DNA of 64,000 nucleotides from Nakamurella antarctica (lineage in GTDB: Bacteria; Actinomycetota; Actinomycetes; Mycobacteriales; Nakamurellaceae), in the NCBI RefSeq assembly GCF_003860405.1, contig NZ_CP034170.1:1302001-1366000 (forward strand), written 5' to 3'. Under the pieces are notes generated by a model. That model was not told where the DNA came from, ran no database searches, and saw only the letters and a program-made list of their open reading frames with translations. Below, piece after piece: positions 2,803 to 39,986 of the stretch. How positions within the stretch are numbered: the first letter of the stretch is position 1; each line of letters starts with the position of its first letter. Made by a program: the position numbers and the translations under genes.

Positions 2803-4296
2803 TCAGGTCATCCAGCGTTCGGGGATGCCGGGCCGGGCCGCCGCGGCCGCAGCGTCGATACTCGCAAGCCGGATGACGGCTGCCGTCAGTTGCTCGGGCG
2901 CGGCGGTGAACGGCAAGCGAAGGTAGGAGTCCATGGTTCCGTCTGGTCCGAACCGTGGTCCCGGAACGATGTGCACTCCGACGCCGGGGGCCATCCTGGC
3001 CAGTTCGCTGGCATAGGGCCCGGGAAGTTCGACCCACAATGACGCCCCACCGCTGGGCGTGGTCGGGGTCCACTTCGGTAGATGTTCCGCCAGTGCCTCC
3101 AACAGTGCCGCGCACCCCGCCGCCAGCCTCGTTGCTTGAGAAAGCATTGCGGTGCCTGGGTTTTCGAGGATGGCGAGAACCACAAGCTGATCCAGAACCG
3201 ACCCGGCCATGTCGCCGAGCGAGCGCGCCTCGCCGAGCCTGTTGACCAGCGTCCGGGTGGTGCGGATCCACCCGACCCGAAGCCCGCCCCACAGCGATTT
3301 GGAGATCGAACCGATTGTGAGCACGCGGCTGGCGTCATCGAAGGCGGCCAGGGGCGGCGGCAACTCTCCGGTGCTCGGGAACGGGACTTCGCGCAGCGAC
3401 TCATCGACCACCAGCAGCGTTGACGTGCCCGCACACGCTGCGATCACACGTGCCCTAGTGTCCGCATCCATCAGTGCGCCGGTCGGATTGTGAAAGTCGG
3501 GGATCAGGTACGCCAGCCGCGGGCTTGCCTGCCGCAGGGACGCCGCGATCAGGTCGATATCCCACGCGTGTGACGGGTCCGCACGCACGGGGATCGGTAC
3601 CGGAACCCGGCGCGCCGCGCGGACGGCGTCCAAGGCGAGCGGATAGGTCGGGCACTCCAGCAGCACCCGGTCGCCGGGAGCGGACAGCGTCGCCAGAATC
3701 AGCGACCACGCGTGCTGCGCGCCGTTGGTGATCAGTATTTCGTCTGCGCTGGTGGGCAGATGAGCGTCGGTGTAGCGGCGGGCGATCCCTTCACGAAGCT
3801 GCCGCAGGCCCAAGGGGTGGTAGCCGTCAGCTCGGAGCAGCGCAGGCAATTGCTGGGCGGCGGCGGCAACGGCGGTGAGAATTTCGTCCGCCGGTGCTGG
3901 GGAGGATGCGGTGGTCAGGTCGATGGCGCCCGAGTCATCCGTCGCGATTTTTCCGCCAATCGCCCACGCGCCAGCCGATTTCGTATCGGCGGGGAACGTG
4001 AGCCGGCTACCGGATCCGCGCACACTGCTCAGCCAGCCGTCATCGCGTAGCAACCCGTAGGCAGCCGCCACCGTAGTGCGCGACAGGCCCGCGGCGGTGG
4101 CAAGTTCGCGCTCGCTGGGGAGCCCGGTGGACACCGCGAGCCTGCCCTCAAGAAGTGCCGATCGAATGCGCCGCGCCAGCTCTCGGTAGCTCGGGCCCAC
4201 GCGCGACAGGTCGTCGGCGAGCCGATCGGGAGTGACGCCGACGCTGACCTGGCGAACAAGGCTTGGCGCGGAAATGCGCAACTGTGGCATCGACAT
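2803..4296 (-). CDS. MocR-family (GntR/aminotransferase) transcriptional regulator, YczR-like
   Basis: 497 aa from the ATG at 4296; the frame stays open for 52 more codons upstream, but those would erase the divergent promoter, and a GGGAAAG motif precedes 4296. Residues about 36-98 are a GntR winged helix (PSERELATAAGLSRTTV). The remainder is a fold-type I aminotransferase domain with an FHNPTG motif near 270, VVDES near 298 and the PLP lysine in SISKSLWGGLRVGW at about residue 333. MocR proteins use PLP as a sensor cofactor rather than for catalysis. The adjacent divergent gene encodes a YczE-type membrane protein, a pairing known for the YczR group, so control of that gene is the most likely job. 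Confidence 0.88.
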   Translation of the reverse strand: MSMPQLRISAPSLVRQVSVGVTPDRLADDLSRVGPSYRELARRIRSALLEGRLAVSTGLPSERELATAAGLSRTTVAAAYGLLRDDGWLSSVRGSGSRLTFPADTKSAGAWAIGGKIATDDSGAIDLTTASSPAPADEILTAVAAAAQQLPALLRADGYHPLGLRQLREGIARRYTDAHLPTSADEILITNGAQHAWSLILATLSAPGDRVLLECPTYPLALDAVRAARRVPVPIPVRADPSHAWDIDLIAASLRQASPRLAYLIPDFHNPTGALMDADTRARVIAACAGTSTLLVVDESLREVPFPSTGELPPPLAAFDDASRVLTIGSISKSLWGGLRVGWIRTTRTLVNRLGEARSLGDMAGSVLDQLVVLAILENPGTAMLSQATRLAAGCAALLEALAEHLPKWTPTTPSGGASLWVELPGPYASELARMAPGVGVHIVPGPRFGPDGTMDSYLRLPFTAAPEQLTAAVIRLASIDAAAAAARPGIPERWMT

Positions 4297-4310
4297 CAGT
4301 CCACTTTCCC

Positions 4311-4373
4311 GTAATTGGCACTGGCTGTCCAGGCCACTTTTGATCAAAATAGCGAATATGACAGGCCAATTAC
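4311..4373. promoter_or_regulatory. Nested palindromes between mocR and yczE: candidate MocR operator
   Basis: GTAATTGGC at 4311-4319 is matched by its exact reverse complement GCCAATTAC at 4365-4373. Centred almost on the same point lies the perfect 12-bp palindrome TTTTGATCAAAA at 4338-4349. TGTC and GACA flank the inner side of the outer arms. MocR regulators generally bind repeated sites near their own promoter, so this is a good operator candidate. The right arm falls just inside the yczE reading frame if the ATG at 4358 is used. Confidence 0.5.
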
Positions 4374-5110
4374 CTCGAGCTGCACACGCGCAGCCCGCAC
4401 CCGAACCCTCATATTTCGTCCACCGCGGTATCTTTCGCGCCGTGCAACCCATTCCCCGCGATCAGCTGGTGCGAAGGTTTGGACAACTCTCGGTCGGTCT
4501 TCTGCTGTACGGGCTATCGATGGCGCTCATGATCCAATCCAGCCTTGGCCTCGGCCCATGGGATGTATTCCATCAAGGTGTGGCCAAACGTGTACCGGTG
4601 AGTTTCGGTGTGGTCGTCATTGCCGTCTCCCTCGTCGTGCTGCTGCTCTGGATACCGCTCAAACAAAAGCCCGGCATCGGCACCGTCGCGAACGCGTTCG
4701 TGGTCGGAGCCGCTACCGACTTGGGCCTGTGGCTCTTTCCCGTCATTCACCAGGTGGCATGGGGGATCGCGGCTATGGTCCTGGCCATCGGAGCCAACGC
4801 TCTCGCTGGCGCCCTATACATCGGCGCCGGGTTGGGACCGGGCCCGCGTGATGGGCTGATGACGGGGCTCGTGCGGCGCGGAGTCGGATCGGTGTTCGTC
4901 GTCCGAAGTTGCCTCGAGGGCACCGTGTTGCTGATCGGCTGGTTACTCGGCGGCACCGTCTTCGTCGGCACCGTTCTCTACGCCGCAACGATCGGGCCCT
5001 GCCTGCACTGGATGATGCCGATCTTCCACATTAAACCGCGACCCCCTGCAACTGAACCCGCTGGGGCTGGCCCGGAGCAGCCGCGCGCGGGTGCCCCGGA
5101 GTCCCGATAG
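4358..5110 (+). CDS. YczE/YitT-like integral membrane protein
   Basis: 250 aa with about five hydrophobic segments (first near residues 45-60, last at the C-terminus). Conserved motifs of the YczE group are visible: LLYGLSMALMIQ, GLGPWDVFHQG and GAGLGPGPRDGLM. Transport substrate unknown. The ATG at 4358 has no clear ribosome binding site and may be leaderless; a GTG at 4442 would give a protein starting closer to the conserved region, so the start is uncertain. It is divergent from the MocR regulator, which probably controls it. Its stop codon sits in TAGAAT, a possible -10 element for the next gene. Confidence 0.82.
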   Translation: MTGQLPRAAHAQPAPEPSYFVHRGIFRAVQPIPRDQLVRRFGQLSVGLLLYGLSMALMIQSSLGLGPWDVFHQGVAKRVPVSFGVVVIAVSLVVLLLWIPLKQKPGIGTVANAFVVGAATDLGLWLFPVIHQVAWGIAAMVLAIGANALAGALYIGAGLGPGPRDGLMTGLVRRGVGSVFVVRSCLEGTVLLIGWLLGGTVFVGTVLYAATIGPCLHWMMPIFHIKPRPPATEPAGAGPEQPRAGAPESR

Positions 5111-5163
5111 AATCAACCCTCGGCCATAAGGTCGGCATCTCGATCTAAAGGGGCATCAGCGCT

Positions 5164-5919
5164 ATGAGCGGCCACTCAAAGTGGGCAACCACCAAGCACC
5201 AGAAGGCAGCCAAGGACGCCAAGCGGAGTAAAAACTTCGCCAAGCTGATCAAGAATATCGAGGTGGCGGCTCGTTCCGGCGGCGGCGATGTTAACGGCAA
5301 CCCCACGTTGTTCGACGCGGTCGCGCGCGCGAAGAAAGAGTCTGTTCCCAAAGACAACATCGACCGCGCCGTCAAGCGAGGCTCGGGCGCCGACGGCGGC
5401 GGCGTCGAATACACCGCCATCACCTACGAGGGCTACGGTCCGAGCGGGGTCGCGATCATGATCGAGTGCCTCACCGAGAACCGTAACCGGGCAGCCTCCG
5501 AAGTTCGTGTCGCCGTTACGCGCAACGGTGGCAATATGGCCGAAATCGGTTCGGTGTCCTACCTTTTCAACCGCAAGGGCAGCATTGTCCTGCCCAAGGG
5601 CGACCTCAGTGAGGACGACCTTCTGATGGCGGTACTGGACGCCGGCGCCGAAGAAGTGATCGACCAGGGTGACACCTTTGAGGTGCTGGCCGAGACCACT
5701 GACCTCTCTGCTGTCCGCGCCGCGCTGATCGAAGCGGGCATGGAATATGACTCCGTCGATCTCACCTTCATCCCCACACTCCACGTGGCGGTGGATGTGG
5801 AGGCGGCCCGCAAGGTCCTGCGATTAGTGGACGCCATTGAAGACCTTGACGACGTGCAAAACGTCTACACCAACGTTGACATCTCCGACGAGGTGGGCGC
5901 GGCGCTCGAAGAGGACTGA
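5164..5919 (+). CDS. yebC: YebC/PmpR-family translation/transcription factor
   Basis: 251 aa, full length for the family. The N-terminus [14 protein letters not shown] is the family hallmark, followed by the [24 protein letters not shown] region and the acidic C-terminus. An AAAGGGG motif about ten bases upstream of the ATG is the ribosome binding site. Members have been described as DNA-binding regulators and, more recently, as ribosome-associated factors that ease translation of difficult sequences. It lies directly before ruvC, as in most actinobacteria. Confidence 0.95.
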
Positions 5920-5998
5920 GCGGGGCCCGGCCATCCGCCGCGCCAACCCGGCGTGGCGCTGCGGCCAGCTGTCGGTGCTTGCCGGTAGCGTCCTAACA

Positions 5999-6012
5999 CG
6001 TACACCTGTTCG
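5999..6012. promoter_or_regulatory. Candidate LexA (SOS) box upstream of ruvC
   Basis: CGTACACCTGTTCG differs at one arm position from the actinobacterial LexA pattern CGAAC-N4-GTTCG. It lies 53 bases before the ruvC start. ruvC is a known LexA target in mycobacteria. The identical 14 bases recur at 21225-21238. Confidence 0.55.
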
Positions 6013-6064
6013 GGTCATCCGTTCGCTTGAAACTGCTCGGCAATCAGTACTGGAGGTCCGGCCC

Positions 6065-6721
6065 ATGCGCGTGCTCGGCGTGGATCCCGGGCTGACCAGG
6101 TGCGGGGTGGGCGTGGTCGATGAGGGTCTGGGCAGACGCTGGAAGCTCATTGACGTCAGCGTCGCGCGGACGCCATCGGGCTCGGATCTCGCGCACCGGC
6201 TGCTGTCTGTTGCCTCCCATGTCGAGGCCGCGATGGACCTCCACCGGCCGGATGCGGTCGCCATCGAGCGCGTCTTCAGCCAACAGAATGTGCTGACGGT
6301 GATCGGGGTAGCGCAGGCCACCGGCGTGGTGGCGCTGGCTGCCGCTCGGCGCGGAATCCCGGTCGCTTGGCACACGCCCAGCGAGGTGAAGGCCGCCGTC
6401 ACCGGAAGTGGCGTCGCCGACAAGGCGCAGGTCACGTTTATGATCACCAAATTATTACGCTTGACGGCAGCGCCCAAGCCGGCTGACGCTGCGGATGCGT
6501 TGGCATTAGCCATGTGTCACCTGATGCGGTCGCCGCTGATCGGACGGTTGGCTGCCGTCCAGCAGACGGGCAAGATCGCCGCGGCCGAGGCTAAAGCCGC
6601 GGGCGCGCCGCCGTCCCGGTGGGAGCTCGCGGAGCGCGAGGCGCGCAAGCAAGCACCCATCGCGCTTGCCCGTCGCCGAGCGGCGCTGCAGGCAGAAACG
6701 AAGAAGGCAGGGTTACGGTGA
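6065..6721 (+). CDS. ruvC: Crossover junction endodeoxyribonuclease RuvC
   Basis: 218 aa. It cuts Holliday junctions symmetrically as a dimer. The acidic catalytic residues are visible in [12 protein letters not shown] (Asp7), AIERVF and the C-terminal [12 protein letters not shown]. The ATG at 6065 is preceded by GGAGG at 6051-6055; the longer open frame upstream overlaps yebC and is not used. The C-terminal extension of about 40 residues is Ala/Arg rich. It is the first gene of ruvCAB and overlaps ruvA by GTGA. Confidence 0.96.
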
Positions 6722-15617: not shown

Positions 15618-15642
15618 ACCTCCCGTCAGAATGGCGGGAGGT
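15618..15642 (-). terminator. Stem-loop at the 3' end of the DUF222/HNH gene
   Basis: ACCTCCCG at 15618-15625 pairs with CGGGAGGT at 15635-15642 over the last codons and stop of the minus-strand gene. There is no clear U-run, so termination is uncertain. Confidence 0.35.
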
Positions 15643-17569
15643 CATATTCACACTTTGCGAGTTGGTGCTGTGTGGACTGTTCCTCACTCACCGGTTTGGT
15701 CCCGACGATGGTCGCCTCCGCTTCGGCTCCACGCTCGTCAGTAGCTGCGTTGGCACTTTTGGCGTGCAGGGGCAGTGTGTTGGGGAGGGTGGTGTTCCAG
15801 TCGTGGGGGTGGCTGGTGTGGGTGTGTCCGGTGGGGGTGGTCCAGTTCAGGGTGTGGTCGTGTTGGTGTTGGACGGTGTGGGTGGTGCGGTGTTTGGTGA
15901 GGTGATGGGTTCGGCAGAGGCTGGCGAGGTTGCAGGGGCAGGTGGGGCCGCCGTTGTCATTGGTGGGGGTCCATGGCTTTTGGTGGTCGATGTCGTTTTT
16001 GGTGGCTTTGCGGTTGCATCCGGGGTAGCGGCAGGTGTGGTCTCGGGTTTTGATGAATTTGTCGACTGTGGTGGTCGGGTATCTGACGGTGCGGCCGAGG
16101 TCGAGGAGGGTGCCGCAGTTGTTGAGTGCGAGGACGGTGATGGTGGCTGCTGATGCGGCGATGGCTCTGGACATTCCAGCGGGGAGGTAGCCGTAGTTGT
16201 CGAGGTGTCCTGGGTTGTTTGCCAAGGCAGCGAGGGTGTCGAGGTTGAGGGTGATCTGTAGGGACGGTGGTGGTCGTAGTGGTCGCCATATGGGCGTGGC
16301 TGTCCCAGGATTCGGGGTCGGGTCTGGGGCTGATGGGGCTGGGATTGGTGTGGCGGGGGTTGGTGCTGGTGGGGTTGGTGCTGGTGTGGCTGGGGCGGTT
16401 GATCTGGTCTTTTTGCGCTGATTTGATTCGGTGCCGGTTTGCGAGACAGGTCTTGGTTTGGGCTCAAGGTTGGCGGCGGGTGTGGGGTTCGGCGCTGGGC
16501 CAGATTCGGTGGGTTTTTTCCGAGGTGTTTCTCGTTCGGTCCTTGCCTGCTGACCTGTCGCCTGCAGATCTGTTGTGGTGCTGTCGGTTTCACCGGTCGG
16601 TGTTGTTGTCTTTGGTTTTGGGGTTGGTGGGGTTTGGGTGGTGAAGGGGAGGAGGTTGATGGTGCCGGTGTCGGCGATGTGGTTGATGAGGTCGCTGAAT
16701 GCGTCTGCGCGGTGTTCGCCGATGCCGCGCAGGGGGGTGGCCGGCGTGTCGGCACCGTCGCTCACGTTGCTGGTGGTGGTGGTGTGGGTGCGTTCGTGGC
16801 TGTAATTGTGATCGGCGAGGGTGTTGATGAGGTGGTAGGCGGTGGCGGCGTCTTGGGCGGGTAGGAGTGCCCAGAACTTGGCGAGGCCGTATTTGTCGGG
16901 TGTGATGCCGATGGTGCGGTTATGGCTGGCTTGTTCGTAGAGAGTTTCGGCGGTGTGGGGGTCGAGGTTGATGACGATGCGGTCGATGAGGTGTCGTAGT
17001 TTCGCCGGTGGGAGTTGGGTGCCGGTGGCGAGGAGGTGGTTTTCGGCGGTGCGTTTGTGGGTGGGGCTGAGGGTGGCGGTGCCTTCGGCGATGAGGGCGG
17101 CGCGGTAGCTGTCTATTTTTCCGGTGGTGAGTGCGGTGAGGGTGGCGGGGAGTTGGGTGACGATGGTGTGGGCGGCGTCGACTTTGATTTGCGCGGTGAT
17201 GCTGGCGATGGTGAGGGCTGGGGCGAGTTGGATGGCGGTGAGTCGGCGGCATTGTTCTTCGATTTTGGTGCGGAGCAGTTCGGGGTGGTTGCGTTCGAGC
17301 TTTTCGAGGTTGAATGCGGTGTGGGCGGCGAGCATGTCGATGGCTTCGTCGCGGGTGGTGACGCGGTCGGGTTTTGCTGCCTCGTGGAGGACTTTGTGCT
17401 GGAGGGCTTGGGTCCAGGAGGCGAGGCGGTTGAGTGCGACGGCGGCGTCGATGAGCTCGGTGGGGGTGGCGTTGGGAAGGTTGAGGGTGTGCAGCGTGGC
17501 GGCCAGTTCAGGTCCGGGTGCGGCGTTCAAGTCGCCTGGTGCTGGGTTGCCGCTGTGCATGTCTGTCAC
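15626..17569 (-). CDS. DUF222 and HNH endonuclease protein (13E12-type)
   Basis: 647 aa. The N-terminal two thirds contain a DUF222 helical region (residues about 20-300), then a long Thr/Pro/Lys-rich low-complexity linker (about 310-430), a second conserved DUF222 block, and a C-terminal HNH nuclease: CRYPGCNRKATKNDIDHQKPW, then GGPTCPCNLASLCRTHH, with four metal-binding cysteines. This is the family of the mycobacterial 13E12 repeats, often present in several copies and DNA-damage inducible. A LexA box lies 25 bases upstream of the start. The coding strand is strikingly C/A-rich (plus strand G/T-rich), unlike neighbours. Function is unknown; a repair or mobile-DNA role is inferred. Confidence 0.88.
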   Translation of the reverse strand: MTDMHSGNPAPGDLNAAPGPELAATLHTLNLPNATPTELIDAAVALNRLASWTQALQHKVLHEAAKPDRVTTRDEAIDMLAAHTAFNLEKLERNHPELLRTKIEEQCRRLTAIQLAPALTIASITAQIKVDAAHTIVTQLPATLTALTTGKIDSYRAALIAEGTATLSPTHKRTAENHLLATGTQLPPAKLRHLIDRIVINLDPHTAETLYEQASHNRTIGITPDKYGLAKFWALLPAQDAATAYHLINTLADHNYSHERTHTTTTSNVSDGADTPATPLRGIGEHRADAFSDLINHIADTGTINLLPFTTQTPPTPKPKTTTPTGETDSTTTDLQATGQQARTERETPRKKPTESGPAPNPTPAANLEPKPRPVSQTGTESNQRKKTRSTAPATPAPTPPAPTPATPIPAPSAPDPTPNPGTATPIWRPLRPPPSLQITLNLDTLAALANNPGHLDNYGYLPAGMSRAIAASAATITVLALNNCGTLLDLGRTVRYPTTTVDKFIKTRDHTCRYPGCNRKATKNDIDHQKPWTPTNDNGGPTCPCNLASLCRTHHLTKHRTTHTVQHQHDHTLNWTTPTGHTHTSHPHDWNTTLPNTLPLHAKSANAATDERGAEAEATIVGTKPVSEEQSTQHQLAKCEYDLPPF

Positions 17570-30054: not shown

Positions 30055-30083
30055 GCAGGCGACCCGGCCTGCTTGTTTTTATT
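30055..30083 (+). terminator. Second terminator-like hairpin with U-run
   Basis: GCAGGC (30055-30060) pairs with GCCTGC (30067-30072), followed directly by TTGTTTTTATT. It backs up the first terminator and marks the edge of the repeated unit that begins at 30066. Confidence 0.6.
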
Positions 30084-30673
30084 GGCCGGGTATTGCTGGG
30101 GTGTTTGGTATTAGGACTGTTCGCCATTCTCCGACGTAGAGGTTGGTGTTTGATACGCGTGTTGGGGCTTGGATGTTGCCGGACTCGCCGGTGTTTGCGG
30201 TCCAGGTGATGGTCCAAGATGCGGCGGCGGTGACTGGCCATGTGCGGGCATCGTTGGTTCGTTCTGGGGTGGATTTGGTGCGGTATTTGTAGGCGCATGC
30301 TCCGGGTATCGGATTTTTGGCGGCGATGTCTACGTCGGGTCCGGGGTTGATTCCGCCTCCTGCGCAGGTGATGGGTGGTGCTGGTTCTGTGAAGTGGGTG
30401 GCTGAGACGGGTTCGCCCATTGTCCAGACGACTTTTGACAATGTGGCGGTTGCTGTGACGGTGACCGTGCCGGCGGTCGCGCTGGCGGTGAGTGGGGCCG
30501 TGTCGCCGGCCCACAGGTAGACCCAGTAGTTGACCGCTACCTGGTTGGCGTTGGGCCCGAAGTTGATTTGTGGGTTCGGGATTTTTAGTGCTTGGTAGGC
30601 CTGTTGAGCTAGGACGGCTGGATCTACCGGTGGGGGAGCGGCGGGGGCGGCGGGATCTGCGTTGGGGCGAAAG
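30066..30673. repeat. Module A, 3' conserved flank (copy of 32043-32650)
   Basis: About 608 bases nearly identical to 32043-32650 at a constant offset of 1977. The visible differences are a patch near 30167-30178 and a few single bases. It encodes the C-terminal half of the secreted protein. Identity ends abruptly at 30673. Confidence 0.92.
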
Positions 30674-31053
30674 CGCGGCGTTGAATCTTCAGCCCACAGA
30701 CCGGCAGGACACACCCATCTGACCACTAGGCCCTCAGTCGCATTCTGACCAGACCACCAGGGGCTTCCAGCAGTCGGCTGAGGCGACAGTGGTACCTCTT
30801 CGCAGGTTGGCGACACTTCGACGTGAGTCGGCACCTCTCCAGTTTTAGTGCCACCGTTCTGAACCCCCGCAGTCTCAACTGCAACGTTCTCTTTGCCCAC
30901 CGTGGGACTGCCACCGGAGGTGCCAGGGTCAAATGCACTGAGTCCGCATCTATCTTTAATACATCCCACAGGGACGTCCGCGATTGCACTTTTAGCTGTA
31001 CTCAAGAACGTGAGCGCTGCGATGAGAGCGACCGTCGCCGTCCGAGTCAGCAT
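30079..31053 (-). CDS. Module A secreted beta-rich protein
   Basis: 324 aa. A Sec signal peptide covers about residues 1-25 (ALIAALTFLSTAKSAIA, cut near ADV). Residues 26-125 carry four cysteines (GCIKDRC, TCEE, VCPAG). A Pro/Ala linker leads to a C-terminal domain: LKIPNPQINFGPNANQVAV, YWVYLWAG, TASATAGTVTVTATA, VVWTMGEP, a cysteine pair, YRTKSTPERTN and WPVTAAASWTITWTANTG. This layout occurs in many unnamed secreted actinobacterial proteins; no function is known to me. The start overlaps the upstream lipoprotein stop by 7 bases (ATGCTGA), so translation is coupled. The C-terminal half is nearly identical in DNA to module B; the N-terminal half is not. Confidence 0.85.
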   Translation of the reverse strand: MLTRTATVALIAALTFLSTAKSAIADVPVGCIKDRCGLSAFDPGTSGGSPTVGKENVAVETAGVQNGGTKTGEVPTHVEVSPTCEEVPLSPQPTAGSPWWSGQNATEGLVVRWVCPAGLWAEDSTPRFRPNADPAAPAAPPPVDPAVLAQQAYQALKIPNPQINFGPNANQVAVNYWVYLWAGDTAPLTASATAGTVTVTATATLSKVVWTMGEPVSATHFTEPAPPITCAGGGINPGPDVDIAAKNPIPGACAYKYRTKSTPERTNDARTWPVTAAASWTITWTANTGESGNIQAPTRVSNTNLYVGEWRTVLIPNTPAIPGQ

Positions 31054-31760
31054 GAGGTCGTGTAGTCACTCGTGGTGCTAGTGACTAGCCAGACGCCAGG
31101 TTCATACTTGGCCACTTGCACCTTCGAAGGATGCCGAAAATAGGAGCCAGCGGCGTCGGGTGCCTTAATTGACGCTCCGTCTTTGTCGTAGAACCCGGCT
31201 GAGGTCGAGTCCACGCAGACCGCCATATCAACAAGTCCTGTCTGCACCTGCGTGACTCTCGGATAGATAGCGATTGCCCCGTCCCCGTACTGGCCGAGCG
31301 CGGCAGTGCCCGCAAGGCTTCGGAGAAGATCCGACTTCTCCGGGTCTGCAGCCCATTTCGCAGCTTCAGCTGACCAGTCATCGCCAGGAGTTGCAAATGC
31401 CTGGTCGACAAATCTGTTGTAGCCCACGTAGGCGTCTATTGCTGCTTGGGCGTCGAGGGCTTGCTCGGGTGTGAGGTTTGCTGGGAGTGGGCTGTTGGGG
31501 GATGGTTCGATCGATTCGGGGCTGTTGGCGGTTGTTTCAGAGCGCGGGCTGTTGTCAGCGGTAGGGGCCGTAGTGATAGCCGTTGCTTGGGTGGGAGCCG
31601 ATGTGACTACCGGAGTTGCCGTTGACGTGGTTGTGGCTGACGTGATCGTCGGTGCCGTGGTTGCGAGCGATGAGGTAAGCGAAATGGGTTTGGTGTCTGA
31701 CGACTGAGCAGTGCAGGCAGTGAGGGCCCCCAATAATGCGATCATCCAAATGCGTCTCAT
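31047..31760 (-). CDS. Module A lipoprotein
   Basis: 237 aa from the ATG at 31760 (AAAGGGGGAG upstream). Signal MRRIWMIALLGALTAC gives a lipobox cysteine at 16. Residues 17-85 are a Thr/Ser/Pro linker that would span the cell wall. The folded part (about 90-237) starts LTPEQALDAQAAIDAYVG and has a VCVDSTSAGFYDKDG motif and a final Cys; it resembles NTF2-like secreted domains in size, which I cannot confirm. The first 113 codons match module B in DNA; the rest has diverged. The gene precedes and overlaps the secreted-protein gene, and both are probably made from the promoter in the 31761-32000 repeat. Confidence 0.85.
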   Translation of the reverse strand: MRRIWMIALLGALTACTAQSSDTKPISLTSSLATTAPTITSATTTSTATPVVTSAPTQATAITTAPTADNSPRSETTANSPESIEPSPNSPLPANLTPEQALDAQAAIDAYVGYNRFVDQAFATPGDDWSAEAAKWAADPEKSDLLRSLAGTAALGQYGDGAIAIYPRVTQVQTGLVDMAVCVDSTSAGFYDKDGASIKAPDAAGSYFRHPSKVQVAKYEPGVWLVTSTTSDYTTSC

Positions 31761-32000
31761 GGAAAGTCTCCCCCTTTGCCTACGAGCAGTTACATCATTG
31801 CAGGTTTTGCCGCCTGCGGGGTGGGCAGTTAACAATTTGCATCAAATGTCAGATGTGCAGTTTGACCGAAATACACCTTTCCTTCAGGTTCGGGGATGTG
31901 GGATTTGTCTGGGCTGATACTGCGGATTATTCAGTGAACTAGGCGAAATAGATTCGTATGTCGGGAGCAGCGGGCTATGGCGAGTTCGGATGTCCGGCAG
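31422..32000. repeat. Module A, 5' conserved flank (copy of 33387-33961)
   Basis: About 579 bases nearly identical to 33387-33961. The offset shifts from 1965 to 1961, fully explained by one single-base and one three-base deletion in copy B. It contains the presumed promoter region (240 bases) and the lipoprotein N-terminus. Confidence 0.92.
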
Positions 32001-32008
32001 TCTAAAGC

Positions 32009-32042
32009 GCTATTCGCTGACATCCTGGGCACTGGGCGCTAG
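32009..32042 (+). pseudogene. Remnant resembling the 3' end of module C
   Basis: GCTATTCGCTGACATC and the next 18 bases match the end of the module C secreted gene and its trailer (from 35763, GCTGTTCGCTGACACC...) at roughly 30 of 34 positions, including the in-frame CGC TGA. It sits exactly between modules A and B, suggesting a third-type module once lay here or that this sequence marks the recombination joint. Confidence 0.55.
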
Positions 32043-32650
32043 GGCCTGCTTGTTTTTATTGGCCGGGTATTGCTGGGGTGTTTGGTATTAGGACTGTTCG
32101 CCATTCTCCGACGTAGAGGTTGGTGTTTGATACGCGTGTTGGGGCATCAATTTCGCCGGACTCGCCTGTGTTTGCGGTCCAGGTGATGGTCCAAGATGCG
32201 GCGGCGGTGACTGGCCATGTGCGGGCATCGTTGGTTCGTTCTGGGGTGGATTTGGTGCGGTATTTGTAGGCGCATGCTCCGGGTATCGGATTTTTGGCGG
32301 CGATGTCTACGTCGGGTCCGGGGTTGATTCCGCCTCCTGCGCAGGTGATGGGTGGTGCTGGTTCTGTGAAGTGGGTGGCTGAGACGGGTTCGCCCATTGT
32401 CCAGACGACTTTTGACAATGTGGCGGTTGCTGTGACGGTGACCGTGCCGGCGGTCGCGCTGGCGGTGAGTGGGGCCGTGTCGCCGGCCCACAGGTAGACC
32501 CAGTAGTTGACCGCTACCTGGTTGGCGTTGGGCCCGAAGTTGATTTGTGGGTTCGGGATTTTTAGTGCTTGGTAGGCCTGTTGCGCTAGGACGGCTGGAT
32601 CTACCGGTGGGGGAGCGGCGGGGGCGGCGGGATCTGCGTTGGGGCGAAAG
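32043..32650. repeat. Module B, 3' conserved flank (copy of 30066-30673)
   Basis: Second copy of the unit encoding the C-terminal half of the secreted protein. It starts with the same GGCCTGCTTGTTTTTATTGG edge as module A. Confidence 0.92.
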
Positions 32651-33018
32651 TAGGGGGTGATGCTGGACATCAGTACCCCGTTGCAATTCCACATCATGAG
32701 CTGGCCATCTCCAGGGGTATGGCCGGACCACCAAGGGTTGGTTGCAGAGGGCTGCGGATTCAAGGCAGTTTCTACACACTGGGGTGCCGGATCAATGATC
32801 ACGGCGCCAGCGGTCACGTCCCTGGCTACCGCCGGTTTACCGTCGACGGAACCTGCCGGGCCGGCGTTGCTGCCCGGGTCGTACGCATTAACGCCGCAGC
32901 CCCCATACGTGCAACCTGAACCGGTCAAAGGAAGCGGAGCTTCGTCGGCGATAGCAACAGTCGGAAGCCAAGGCATCGATATCGCAGCTATTGCCAAGAA
33001 CCTTCTGATATTCAACAT
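32056..33018 (-). CDS. Module B secreted beta-rich protein
   Basis: 320 aa from the ATG at 33018, which overlaps the upstream stop by 7 bases (ATGTTGA) exactly as in module A; the frame is open further up but that part lies in the other gene. Signal peptide at about 1-24 (FLAIAAISMPWLPTVAIA). The N-terminal domain (25-115) keeps the cysteine layout of module A (GCTYGGCG, QCVE, NCNG) but has a different sequence. From FRPNADPAAP onward it is nearly identical to module A. Function unknown. If the upstream lipoprotein frame is broken, coupling could reduce its expression. Confidence 0.83.
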   Translation of the reverse strand: MLNIRRFLAIAAISMPWLPTVAIADEAPLPLTGSGCTYGGCGVNAYDPGSNAGPAGSVDGKPAVARDVTAGAVIIDPAPQCVETALNPQPSATNPWWSGHTPGDGQLMMWNCNGVLMSSITPYFRPNADPAAPAAPPPVDPAVLAQQAYQALKIPNPQINFGPNANQVAVNYWVYLWAGDTAPLTASATAGTVTVTATATLSKVVWTMGEPVSATHFTEPAPPITCAGGGINPGPDVDIAAKNPIPGACAYKYRTKSTPERTNDARTWPVTAAASWTITWTANTGESGEIDAPTRVSNTNLYVGEWRTVLIPNTPAIPGQ

Positions 33019-33721
33019 GAATTTGAGTAATCTTCTTGAATCAACGTCACTAGCCATTGTCCTGTGTCGTATTGAGCAACCTGGACTTGAGAGATATTTC
33101 TCCAATAGGTACCTGCAACATTCGGTGATTTAATCGATTTCCCATTGGCGTTGAAAATATCACTTTCGGAGGAGTCCACACACACCGTCATTTTTACTAG
33201 GGCTGGCTCGGCTGAATCAACGACAGGAAAAACCTGGGTAAATCCAGACCTGTACTGACCCCTGAGTGCTGTTTGTTCTAGGGCAGTGAGCAGTCCCTGT
33301 TTGGCCGGCCCGGTTGCATACTGAGCTACCTGCGAGGTCCAGTCTCTTCCGGGATCTGCAAATCCTTGATCAACAGTCTGGAAGAAGCCCACGTAGGCGT
33401 CTATTGCTGCTTGGGCGTCGAGGGCTTGCTCGGGTGTGAGGTTTGCGGGGAGTGGGCTGCTGGGGATGGTTCGATCGATTCAGGGCTGTTGGCGGTTGTT
33501 TCAGAGCGCGGGCTGTTATCAGCGGTAGGGGCCGTAGTGATAGCCGTTGCTTGGGTGGGAGCCGATGTGACTACCGGAGTTGCCGTTGACGTGGTTGTGG
33601 CTGACGTGATCGGTGCCGTGGTTGCGAGCGATGAGGTAATCGAAATGGGTTTGGTGTCTGACGACTGAGCAGTGCAGGCCGTGAGGGCCCCCAATAATGC
33701 GATCATCCAAATGCGTCTCAT
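33012..33721 (-). pseudogene. Module B lipoprotein, frameshifted
   Basis: The ATG at 33721 opens MRRIWMIALLGALTAC as in module A, but the frame runs out at 33401 after a shift. In module A the linker has a run of five G on the plus strand (31497-31501); here it has four (33462-33465). Restoring one base would give a 236-aa protein that continues to 33012 with FFQTVDQGFADPGRDW and the CVDSSESDIFNANG motif. The downstream reading is well conserved, so the shift is recent, reversible, or a sequencing error in a homopolymer. A GTG near 33392 could in principle restart translation but lacks a ribosome binding site. Confidence 0.78.
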
Positions 33722-33961
33722 GCAAGTCTCCCCCTTTGCCTACGAGCAGTTACATCATTGCAGGTTTTGCCGCCTGCGGGGTGGGCAGTTAACAATTTGC
33801 ATCAAATGTCAGATGTGCAGTTTGACCGAAATACACCATTCCTTCAGGTTCGGGGATGTGGGAATTGTCCGAGCTGATACTGCGGATTATTCAGTGAACT
33901 AAGCGAAATAGATTCGTACGTCGGGAGCAGCGGGCTATGGCGAGCTCGGATGTCCGGGCAG
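33387..33961. repeat. Module B, 5' conserved flank (copy of 31422-32000)
   Basis: Second copy of the promoter region plus lipoprotein N-terminus. Outside it (from 33962) the sequence is unique. Confidence 0.92.
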
Positions 33962-34119: not shown

Positions 34120-34875
34120 ATGAACAAAATTTTAAGGGGAGCGATACTCGCTGTGCTGCTGACAAGCTGCTCAGCTGATCCAGCGCAGGTTCTTGGTGAC
34201 GTGGAAACTTTGCCAGCCCAGTCTTCCGCTGTGGAGCCCGAGCTCCCCGCTACCGAAACGACCTCTATTTCAGCGGCAACCACTGATGCATCAACAACCT
34301 CGGTGGTGCTGACCCTGCCGGCAGGGCCCGAGCTTTCGGCGACTGAGCCTTCGGAGACGACATCGATCGCCATCGAGAGTGTTACACCTTCGACCACAAG
34401 CGTCGATCCAGTTCCTGGCAGTGCTGCGATTGATCCGAGTCTGAGCCTGAGCGCCGAGGAGCTAGCCGACCGGACAGAGATCGAGCGCGTCTGGCGCGAG
34501 TTCTGGGTCTTGTATGCGCGGATTAATAGGGTCGAACCTCTTGATCGCGCGGCGCTGCTGGGCATGCTCGTAATGGACCCCGCGCTGACTGCCATCTTGG
34601 CTGAGGCGACCGATTTTGACGCGAGAGGTCTCGACAGTTACGGGACCGTTGAGCTGCACCCCTATTGGGAATATCCGGTCGCTGGCTTTGCGACTGCCCA
34701 AATCAGTGACTGTCGGGACGCAAGTCAATTTGGTTCGCTGTACGCGTCCAGCGGAGAAAAACGCTCGGTCGGTGTAGCCGCCAGCAATACTGTGGGTGCA
34801 TTCGCTCGGTTGGACGGCGTTTGGCGGCTCTATGAGATTAGCTACCGGCCGGATCTCCCATGCCAAGTTTCATGA
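34120..34875 (+). CDS. Module C lipoprotein
   Basis: 251 aa from the ATG at 34120, with GGGGGG nine bases upstream. Signal MNKILRGAILAVLLTSC gives a lipobox cysteine at 17. A Ser/Thr/Pro/Glu linker runs to about residue 105. The folded part shares the module A/B layout: an initial helix (SAEELADRTEIERVW), a DCRDASQFG...SSGEKR motif in the place of CVDSTSAGFYDKDG, and a Cys near the C-terminus. Sequence identity to A and B is low. The stop overlaps the next start (ATGA). Divergent from module B. Confidence 0.82.
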   Translation: MNKILRGAILAVLLTSCSADPAQVLGDVETLPAQSSAVEPELPATETTSISAATTDASTTSVVLTLPAGPELSATEPSETTSIAIESVTPSTTSVDPVPGSAAIDPSLSLSAEELADRTEIERVWREFWVLYARINRVEPLDRAALLGMLVMDPALTAILAEATDFDARGLDSYGTVELHPYWEYPVAGFATAQISDCRDASQFGSLYASSGEKRSVGVAASNTVGAFARLDGVWRLYEISYRPDLPCQVS

Positions 34876-35774
34876 GAACTCTGGTGGGGCTCGTGGTGAT
34901 TTTATTGACGACTTTGTTATTCACACTTACCGCCGCAGCCGACGAAATTATCACCAGCACTGGGTCTGGCAAAGAGGGCACCTACAACGTATCCGTGGGC
35001 AAGACGGCTGGCAAAGTTGCCACTCCAGACGCGGCGACCGCGGCCCAGAGTCCCGAAGAAGCAAACTCTCTTGGGGGGATCATCGACAATCTTCACTTGG
35101 CGTGCGTGGTCAATGCTGCCGGCGGGACCCAGTCTGAAGCTTGCGCGGCAGCGCAGATCGCGTTTGATTGCACCTATGACGGTGGTTTCCCGGATTTAGT
35201 AGGTACGGCTGCGGATCCGTGTGCTGCTGTACCGGTAGTGCCGACCGTGACTGCGGAGCAGTTGGCTGAGCAGGCGTTTGGGCAGTTGAAGTTGCCGTCG
35301 CCGCGATTGAACTTTGGTCCCGATCCAGCGAAAATCGCGGTGAAGTACACGACGTGGTTATGGATGGATAACGCGCAGCAGCGCACCGTTTCGGTAAGTG
35401 CGGGCGGGATAACAGTTACTGCTACGGCGTCTGTCTCGACTACTTCATGGGATATGGGGGAGCCGGTTGACCCTGCGGTGCCGAGTGTTAAGGCGGATCC
35501 GGTGGTGTGTGCTGGGCCGGGTGTGGCACCCCCGCTTTCAGTGAATGAACTGTCGTCGGCGCCCTGTGGCTACACCTATGCGTGGCGTTCAACTGCTGAG
35601 CGGACAAACGGTCAACGGGCATGGCCAGTGACCGTCACTGCCGCCTGGGATGTCCGATGGGAGTCGAACACGGGGCTTTCGGGGAGCACGACGTTGACGA
35701 CGCAGAACACGGCGAGCACCTATGTGGGTCAGTGGAATGTGGAACTCGTTCCCCCACCAATCGCTGTTCGCTGA
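34872..35774 (+). CDS. Module C secreted beta-rich protein
   Basis: 300 aa from ATG 34872 (ATGA overlap with the lipoprotein stop; an in-frame ATG at 34860 is also possible). Signal peptide at about 1-23. N-terminal domain with cysteines in LACVVN, EACAAA, FDCTYDG and DPCAA. The C-terminal domain clearly matches A and B: LKLPSPRLNFGPDPAKIAV, TWLWMD, SAGGITVTATASV, SWDMGEPV, a cysteine pair, YAWRSTAERTNGQRAWPVT and WESNTGLSG. It is an older paralogue rather than a recent duplicate. Confidence 0.84.
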   Translation: MRTLVGLVVILLTTLLFTLTAAADEIITSTGSGKEGTYNVSVGKTAGKVATPDAATAAQSPEEANSLGGIIDNLHLACVVNAAGGTQSEACAAAQIAFDCTYDGGFPDLVGTAADPCAAVPVVPTVTAEQLAEQAFGQLKLPSPRLNFGPDPAKIAVKYTTWLWMDNAQQRTVSVSAGGITVTATASVSTTSWDMGEPVDPAVPSVKADPVVCAGPGVAPPLSVNELSSAPCGYTYAWRSTAERTNGQRAWPVTVTAAWDVRWESNTGLSGSTTLTTQNTASTYVGQWNVELVPPPIAVR

Positions 35775-39425: not shown

Positions 39426-39986
39426 ATGGACGAATCAGTAATGCTGCGGCTTATGCCGCTTTCCGAGGCCACGTGGCTGTTAGCGGGTGGCCGGCCACAG
39501 GACGGAAGCTGGCACCCCGAATATCCGCTGGACGGCGACCAACGAGCATGCGGCGGGTATGTAGACCGTGCCACCAAAGACCGTGCCACCAAAGACCGTG
39601 CCACCAAAGACCGTGCCACCGAAGACCCCTCCGCTGCGCACCCCTTCGGCTACTACCAAGTGCTCAGGAACGGCGTGGTGATCGGGGGCGCTGGCTTCCA
39701 CAGCCCGCCCGCTTCGGGAGTCGTGGAGATTGGCTACGGCATCGTTCCTGCTGAACGCGGCCGGGGTAGTGCAACCGCCGCGCTCCGGATGCTGCTGGCA
39801 ATCGCGACCGAGGCCAACGCTGACCCCCACGCTGTGGCCGGAGTCGAGTTGGTAATCGGGTCTGCAGACCACGGAAACGAGGCATCCCAGCGGGTAATGC
39901 TGGCGGCAGGCATGCGCTGCGACGGTCCGGGTACCGATGAGATGGGTGAAGCTATTGTCCGGTTTTCCTGGGACGTGCCGGTCTAG
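39426..39986 (+). CDS. GNAT-family N-acetyltransferase with internal repeat
   Basis: 186 aa from the ATG at 39426. It follows the RimJ-type pattern: MLRLMPLSEAT, GYYQVLRNGVVIGGAGFHSPP, VEIGYGIVPAERGRGSATAAL (acetyl-CoA loop) and NEASQRVMLAAGM. A 15-base tandem repeat inserts DRATK units near residues 46-66, ahead of the central strands. The substrate is unknown. Starts codon-close to the divergent GH13 gene. Confidence 0.82.
   Translation: MDESVMLRLMPLSEATWLLAGGRPQDGSWHPEYPLDGDQRACGGYVDRATKDRATKDRATKDRATEDPSAAHPFGYYQVLRNGVVIGGAGFHSPPASGVVEIGYGIVPAERGRGSATAALRMLLAIATEANADPHAVAGVELVIGSADHGNEASQRVMLAAGMRCDGPGTDEMGEAIVRFSWDVPV
39564..39623 (+). repeat. 15-bp tandem repeat, four copies, in the acetyltransferase gene
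   Basis: GACCGTGCCACCAAA is repeated at 39564, 39579, 39594 and 39609 (last copy ends GAA). It encodes DRATK three times and DRATE, and keeps the frame; copy number could change by slippage. Confidence 0.95.

Follow-up and report, generated by a model that had tools for sequence, protein, structure and literature searches.

A 64,000-nucleotide stretch of the Nakamurella antarctica genome (hereafter the window; bases 1302001-1366000 of a single-contig 3.378-Mb genome) carries two tandem copies of a two-gene surface module, A and B, with nearly identical ends and a strongly divergent middle. This divergent core crosses the junction between a lipoprotein gene and the gene for its secreted partner. 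Across homologous modules, the C-terminal domain (C-domain) of the lipoprotein and the N-terminal region of the secreted protein travel together across the two genes, whereas the N- and C-terminal regions of the secreted protein itself do not. On balance, we favor a reading wherein the pair derives from Tad (tight adherence) or conjugative pili, and its docking interface reassorts as one junction-spanning cassette through homologous recombination.

Flanks and cores of the modules

Modules A and B lie on the minus strand about 1.96 kb apart, and in each of them a lipoprotein gene shares 7 nt with the start of the next gene, which encodes a Sec-type secreted protein. The lipoprotein is built from a signal peptide with a lipobox, a Ser/Thr-rich stalk and a C-domain. 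A third module, C (34120-35774, plus strand), adjoins A and B in divergent orientation, and the open reading frames (ORFs) of the locus are module pairs only, bounded by ALDH and RarA genes.

A sequence-only reading of this DNA had described near-identical flanks around a divergent core that spans the gene junction, and its coordinates were reproduced by a repeat scan and alignment. The 5' flanks (A ~31422-31997, B ~33387-33957) are identical at 531 of 550 columns (~96%) and the 3' flanks (~608 nt) at ~99%. Across the ~740 nt of the core, which runs over the lipoprotein/secreted gene junction, ~47% of columns are identical. Both core boundaries are sharp (within ~50 nt) and both lie inside genes; uniform divergence along the modules, which that reading had named as telling against it, is not seen. 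At the protein level, A and B share 95% of residues in the linker, 45% in the lipoprotein C-domain, 34% in the secreted N-region and 99% in the secreted C-domain. Mean identities between genomes for the same four parts are 24, 24, 21 and 42%: across genomes the Ser/Thr linker and the lipoprotein domain have diverged equally, yet between A and B the linker is far better matched than that domain. When tree path length for the lipoprotein C-domain is expressed as a ratio to that for the secreted C-domain, A/B score 66 and two module pairs in another Nakamurella genome, G005, score 35-40; across 435 Nakamurella module pairs the median ratio is 2.3. The contrast between flanks and core is far beyond ordinary rate variation, and these ratios and linker identities imply that the flanks were recently made alike or the cores exchanged.

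The A and B cores belong to the same subtype (54% amino acid identity) and are sisters in the lipoprotein tree. Changes at codon positions 1/2/3 number 50/44/87 over 124 codons and 50/43/78 over 114, and this bias, kept in both cores, indicates that both are, or recently were, real coding sequence. We considered a silent cassette copy of the core elsewhere in the genome and rejected it, as a search for extra copies of cores A and B across the genome found none and each core is single-copy. The module B lipoprotein gene has lost one nucleotide from a C run (~33462-33465; five C in A, four in B) and is frameshifted. This is either a recent event or a sequencing error; the downstream frame is still open and constrained. 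Module C, the frameshift in B and the common subtype of the A and B cores all go beyond what had been read from the sequence earlier. Separately, the few differences between the A and B 3' flanks cluster at ~30155-30205 versus 32132-32182 (AACATCCAAG versus GAAATTGATG), which may mark a short tract converted from a third source.

At least two further Nakamurella genomes (G005 and G015) show the same flank/core pattern, which is neither an artefact nor unique to the window. In G005, modules on contigs C3, C16 and C20 have 5' flanks 73-98% identical and 3' flanks 89-96% identical at the DNA level, around cores of ~50% identity. The C3/C20 pair has a 5' flank 98% identical over 901 nt, a 3' flank 96% identical over 757 nt, and amino acid identities of 98, 45, 28 and 98% in the linker, lipoprotein C-domain, secreted N-region and secreted C-domain. 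In G015, a homogenised 3' flank is common to four modules, and one of its modules, C59b, holds a core of the other ancient type inside shared flanks; CVADPVRGSD on the 5' side and CAWRSVSNN on the 3' side are contiguous with that core, with no N between them. Copies are both tandem and dispersed in G015, and three dispersed copies are present in G005. That the same layout is found in two other genomes upholds the earlier suggestion that the flanks are shared through recombination. In the window the core boundary lies at residue ~127 of the secreted protein; in G005 it coincides with the second Cys and in G015 with the first. Because boundaries shift by tens of residues between genomes, homologous recombination fits better than a site-specific recombinase. 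Two of the comparison genomes are draft assemblies, and G015 holds N gaps.

Nakamurella is a genus of soil bacteria, and the secreted family is present in 15 of its 17 genomes, often in multiple copies. Another tandem case is found on a 3.7-kb contig of G005 (C11; locus L103), where a complete module is accompanied by the beginning of another; the two lipoproteins are alike up to helix 1 and diverge after it. In the pattern search, pattern A1 proved too diverse, and A2 led to eight loci including two Nakamurella contigs; a first contig scan with module C as query gave no match. Five window neighbors (aspS, NAD-binding, ALDH, RarA and amylase genes) were compared for synteny and gave only two ~31%, paralogue-level matches in other regions, so no conserved site was found.

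Co-typing across the gene junction

The lipoprotein C-domain tree splits into two ancient types, I and II (support 98/87). The partner of a type I lipoprotein carries a Cys-bracketed hairpin after its signal peptide (GCIKDRCG in A, GCTYGGCG in B), and the partner of a type II lipoprotein, as in module C, carries a Gly/Thr-rich hairpin without the Cys pair. Lipoprotein type and secreted N-type agree in 44 of 45 curated modules (Fisher 8e-12, not phylogeny-corrected). In a wider set, agreement extends to 65+22 of 90 modules, and one of the three mismatches (L161) is by eye a cutoff miss. A homologous lipoprotein gene also lies directly upstream in 57 of 60 further order-level modules.

The secreted C-domain tells a different history. 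Lipoprotein type changes once on the lipoprotein's own tree, but eight times (46 rows) or seven times (91 rows; 20.6 with shuffled labels) on the secreted C-domain tree. Approximately unbiased (AU) tests reject a type II clade for the secreted C-domain (p 2e-44) and a clade uniting three G015 modules for the lipoprotein domain (p 1e-7). Independent contrasts agree in 5/5 and 4/4 cases, and the partial correlation of lipoprotein C-domain with secreted N-region, given the secreted C-domain, is 0.38 (n=89), or 0.42 within Nakamurella type II. Co-typing together with a conflicting secreted C-domain tree indicates that the core is inherited as a block. The proposal of paired domains that change together, made from the sequence alone, is thereby supported, with all but 2-3 of the 90 modules of the wider set in agreement.

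Protein structure and Tad context of the pair

Five lipoprotein residues are invariant over 39 homologues: C16, G161, C182, W224 and C237. The lipoprotein domain, modelled by AlphaFold with a predicted local distance difference test (pLDDT) score of ~98 over most of its length, is predicted to adopt an NTF2-like cone fold. Its best match is ARC6 (5had; Z 13.7, root-mean-square deviation 2.7 over 124 residues), and the structure search returned many further NTF2-like entries at Z 9-11. The closest structures are the intermembrane-space domains of ARC6 and PARC6, the latter solved bound to PDV1. This precedent of an NTF2-like domain holding a partner segment makes docking of the secreted N-terminus a reasonable proposal. 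The secreted protein is predicted to be disordered to about residue 80, followed by a C84-C115 unit, a Pro linker and a PKD/Ig-like sandwich; its C-domain reaches Z 8-9 to PKD domains and a carbohydrate-binding module, with no Foldseek E below 0.001 and no Pfam match. The core comprises most of the NTF2-like domain plus the secreted N-region, and the constant parts are the anchor, the stalk and the PKD-like domain.

Pfam, NCBIfam and PHROGs returned no meaningful family for either protein, and the pair is an unnamed family that is widespread in actinobacteria. Members of the secreted family are often annotated as 'ATP/GTP-binding protein' in NCBI, for example in the Streptomyces sp. NBC_01455 plasmid (L179), and are predicted to be secreted PKD-like proteins. 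The N. antarctica genome also encodes a fourth NTF2-like homologue (L181; genome 797752-798629, minus strand), in which a transmembrane anchor replaces the lipobox and which lacks a secreted partner. It adjoins glycosyltransferase-like and polysaccharide-exporter-like genes and is apparently split over two frames.

Tad-type type IV pilus loci are known in Gram-positive bacteria (PMC3244431). We find tad genes (SAF/CpaB-like, CpaE-like, CpaF, TadB, TadC, Flp-like and TadE) directly downstream of the pair, or at least of its secreted member, at eight Nakamurella loci, in Amycolatopsis eburnea and on the Streptomyces sp. NBC_01455 plasmid. Among the Nakamurella genomes, the pair, or at least its secreted member, stands directly before tad genes in G003, G010, G006, G002 and G007; on a Curtobacterium plasmid, the pair follows the tad genes instead. 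Both core types are tad-linked, type I in G003 and G010 and type II in G002b and G007b, and in G003 and G010 TraG-like and ArdC genes lie upstream of the pair. In a search of the Tad literature, the pair was not found as a named component. In one tad-linked module (L071; G006, 3636-6700), the lipoprotein gene is separated from that of its secreted partner by an IS3-like transposase gene, and the partner N-terminus has been lost. The tad genes of the N. antarctica genome itself (L067, L069) are scattered, with CpaF/TadB/TadC at ~510 kb, SAF/CpaE-like genes at ~967 kb and a further SAF protein at ~723 kb.

Features of the three modules are collected in Table 1. Two other features of the window stand apart from them. 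An HNH-nuclease-type gene occupies 15626-17569 on the minus strand, where the extreme GC skew at 16-17 kb (0.455) is due to a long Pro/Thr-rich insert. Within an acetyltransferase-like ORF, 4.3 copies of a 15-bp repeat (39563-39627) encode repeated KDRAT units.

Table 1. Features of modules A, B and C, in window coordinates.
Feature	Position	Strand	Details and basis
Module A upstream/promoter region, within shared 5' flank	31761..31997	-	~96% identity to 33722-33957
Module A lipoprotein gene, 237 aa	31047..31760	-	ORF
Module A lipoprotein parts			Lipobox TAC16; Ser/Thr-rich linker to ~residue 97; NTF2-like domain 98-236 (predicted structure and alignment)
Module A secreted partner, 324 aa	30079..31053	-	ORF, alignment, structure model
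Module A secreted N-part			Signal peptide; mature N-terminus with Cys pair (GCIKDRCGLSAFDPG); predicted disordered linker
Module A secreted C-part			C84-C115 subdomain; Pro linker; predicted PKD/Ig-like domain ~155-311
Module A variable core, rest of NTF2-like domain and secreted N-terminal part	30674..31421	-	Alignment
Module A shared 3' flank, Pro linker and PKD-like domain	30066..30673	-	~99% identity to 32043-32650
Module B upstream/promoter region, within shared 5' flank	33722..33957	-	Alignment
Module B lipoprotein gene, frameshifted	33012..33721	-	N-part ORF 33401-33721; C-part open frame 33012-33392 and beyond
Module B secreted partner, N-terminus GCTYGGCGVNAYDPG	32056..33018	-	ORF
Module B variable core	32651..33386	-	Alignment; single copy in genome
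Module B shared 3' flank	32043..32650	-	Alignment
Module C lipoprotein gene, type II NTF2-like domain, divergent from A/B	34120..34875	+	ORF, homology
Module C secreted partner, N-terminus without Cys pair (EIITSTGSGKEGTYNVSVG)	34872..35774	+	PKD-like domain 41% identity to A

A proposed junction-spanning cassette and its alternatives

The mechanism that we propose runs as follows. Each module would yield a lipid-anchored protein and a secreted partner. The NTF2-like domain, held outside the membrane on its Ser/Thr-rich stalk, would most likely bind the partner's mature N-terminus, and co-typing suggests that the variable halves dock physically; the bound segment may be the short hairpin just past the signal peptide, with or without a disulfide. 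The partner's constant PKD-like domain would perform a shared job, probably contact with the pilus, the wall or a neighboring surface. As the docking halves meet at the gene junction, they would form one contiguous cassette. Gene conversion or unequal exchange in the flanks could then homogenise the promoter/anchor/stalk side and the PKD-like side, while cores persist or move as intact matched blocks, presumably under selection for matched pairs at the cell surface. By ancestry, the pair may have been an accessory of Tad-type pilus or conjugation loci that multiplied into orphan modules in Nakamurella. Evidence on the direction of transfer is split: the sister cores of A and B favor old duplication followed by flank conversion, and the core of the other ancient type in G015 C59b fits core replacement or conversion of both flanks. 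Either flanks moved onto old cores or cores into flanks, and switching during growth may also take place.

Several points weigh against this cassette model. Type pairing has exceptions (G016_C19, L160), and the Cys-pair criterion had been spotted before modules were scored by it. The independent contrasts are few (4-7), making phylogeny-corrected significance marginal. In the wider set, the lipoprotein C-domain and the secreted C-domain also correlate (partial r 0.60), as older lineages evolving together. Much of the secreted N-region is predicted to be disordered, and part of its divergence may reflect low constraint. A tblastn search of the window found no Tad homologue, leaving the window modules as orphans. 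Some modules besides B, with its frameshifted lipoprotein gene, are broken, and a sample of one genome per species can show neither alleles nor switching.

The strongest competitor of the cassette model is neutral concerted evolution, in which old duplicates have similar ends that are repeatedly gene-converted and a diverged middle that no longer converts, with co-typing reflecting close linkage only. Gene conversion stops at heterology, the boundaries differ between genomes as conversion tracts would, and the A and B cores are sisters. We nonetheless regard this account as rather unlikely, chiefly for the scarcity of breaks at the junction: breaks flanking the core have occurred 7-8 times, those at the mid-core gene junction at most 1-2 times, although the distances are similar. 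Moreover, the Nakamurella type II secreted N-region tracks the neighboring gene over its own C-domain (partial r 0.42 versus 0.09), and Ser/Thr linkers that are weakly conserved across genomes fall inside the homogenised flank.

The sequence-only reading had also likened the locus to antigenic variation, a suggestion that fared poorly. If B were a donor or silent cassette and A the expressed copy, with cores exchanged within a population by antigenic or phase variation, then tandem copies with identical flanks, a B lipoprotein one base off in a C run and several core variants in G005 and G015 would all be expected. But B has its own upstream flank on the promoter side, as does A, and an intact partner gene; the C run is only 4-5 bases long; other modules appear to be complete; neither a recombinase nor a silent array was noticed beside the modules; and the single-copy cores leave no silent copies to draw on, unlike pilin-type systems with silent copies and one expression site. 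We judge this explanation very improbable. Still less probable is a polymorphic toxin/immunity pair, similar to those of contact-dependent inhibition (CDI) or Rhs systems. CDI toxin and immunity genes are exchanged as a unit, and the modules too are two-gene blocks whose contiguous variable halves are inherited as one, much as contiguous halves of adjacent genes are exchanged in CdiA-CT/CdiI. However, Pfam and NCBIfam assign neither protein to a toxin or immunity family. Variation in the secreted protein falls in its mostly disordered N-terminal part, not in a C-terminal toxin, and the anchored partner has its own lipobox and is exported like its mate, and so is not a cytosolic immunity protein. 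An assembly artefact from a collapsed or duplicated repeat might be suspected given the near-identical flanks of 1.96-kb tandem units and the draft state of two comparison genomes. We give this almost no credence, as the window lies inside a single 3.38-Mb contig, A and B differ at ~20 flank positions and throughout the core, and the pattern is also seen in G005, in gap-free modules from different contigs, and in G015, across a stretch without N.

Relation to known systems and implications

The earlier statement that no described system has this layout was too strong, given agr and comQXP. In the agr locus of Staphylococcus aureus, a hypervariable block crosses agrB-agrD-agrC (PMC12312760, PMC10482373). 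As in our modules, a junction-crossing variable block between conserved ends sets partner recognition there, and matched types are inherited together. The agr types, however, are alleles of one locus between strains and involve a peptide pheromone and a sensor kinase, whereas the Nakamurella modules are paralogues within one genome and encode a lipoprotein and a secreted PKD-like protein, with no kinase or peptide processing. The comQXP genes of Bacillus are likewise neighbors that are polymorphic together, giving communication groups (PMC4408185), but they serve quorum sensing with a modified peptide, and none of the comQXP proteins is present at the Nakamurella modules. Judged by the locus ORFs, then, the modules have the junction-crossing variable block of such systems but no genes for a peptide signal, a processing enzyme or a sensor kinase. 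What stands of the novelty claim is that agr and comQXP are signalling alleles, not paralogous surface pairs in one genome. A literature search turned up no variable blocks that span gene junctions and involve gene conversion.

Other likenesses concern the proteins and their setting. Homologous pairs sit directly before tad genes, although the window modules are orphans. VirB8 and TraH share an NTF2-like domain outside the membrane (TraH of pIP501, Z 10.7; VirB8-like, Z 9.6), and some homologues of the pair adjoin TraG-like and ArdC genes. The Nakamurella protein differs in being a long-stalked lipoprotein with a candidate C182-C237 disulfide, and the match is one of fold, with no sequence-family match. 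Taken together, the layout resembles agr and comQXP most, in an unrelated, unnamed surface pair that occurs as paralogues within genomes.

A broader and more speculative possibility, which we put forward tentatively and think less likely than the cassette model itself, is that actinobacterial Tad and conjugative pili carry a previously unrecognised two-protein surface complex whose interface is a junction-spanning cassette. Nakamurella would have expanded this complex to interchangeable modules, with recombination sparing matched interfaces while constant anchors and effector domains are re-used, possibly for discrimination of kin or mating partners or for escape from pilus-targeting phages. 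The analysis shows that a two-gene actinobacterial family with no model in Pfam or NCBIfam recurs in Tad-type pilus loci. It also offers a natural experiment in the co-evolution of protein partners, in which matched interfaces are re-used on constant scaffolds many times within one genus. If docking proves true, these pairs would provide orthogonal surface tethers and a testable case of how recognition can diversify without breaking cognate pairs.

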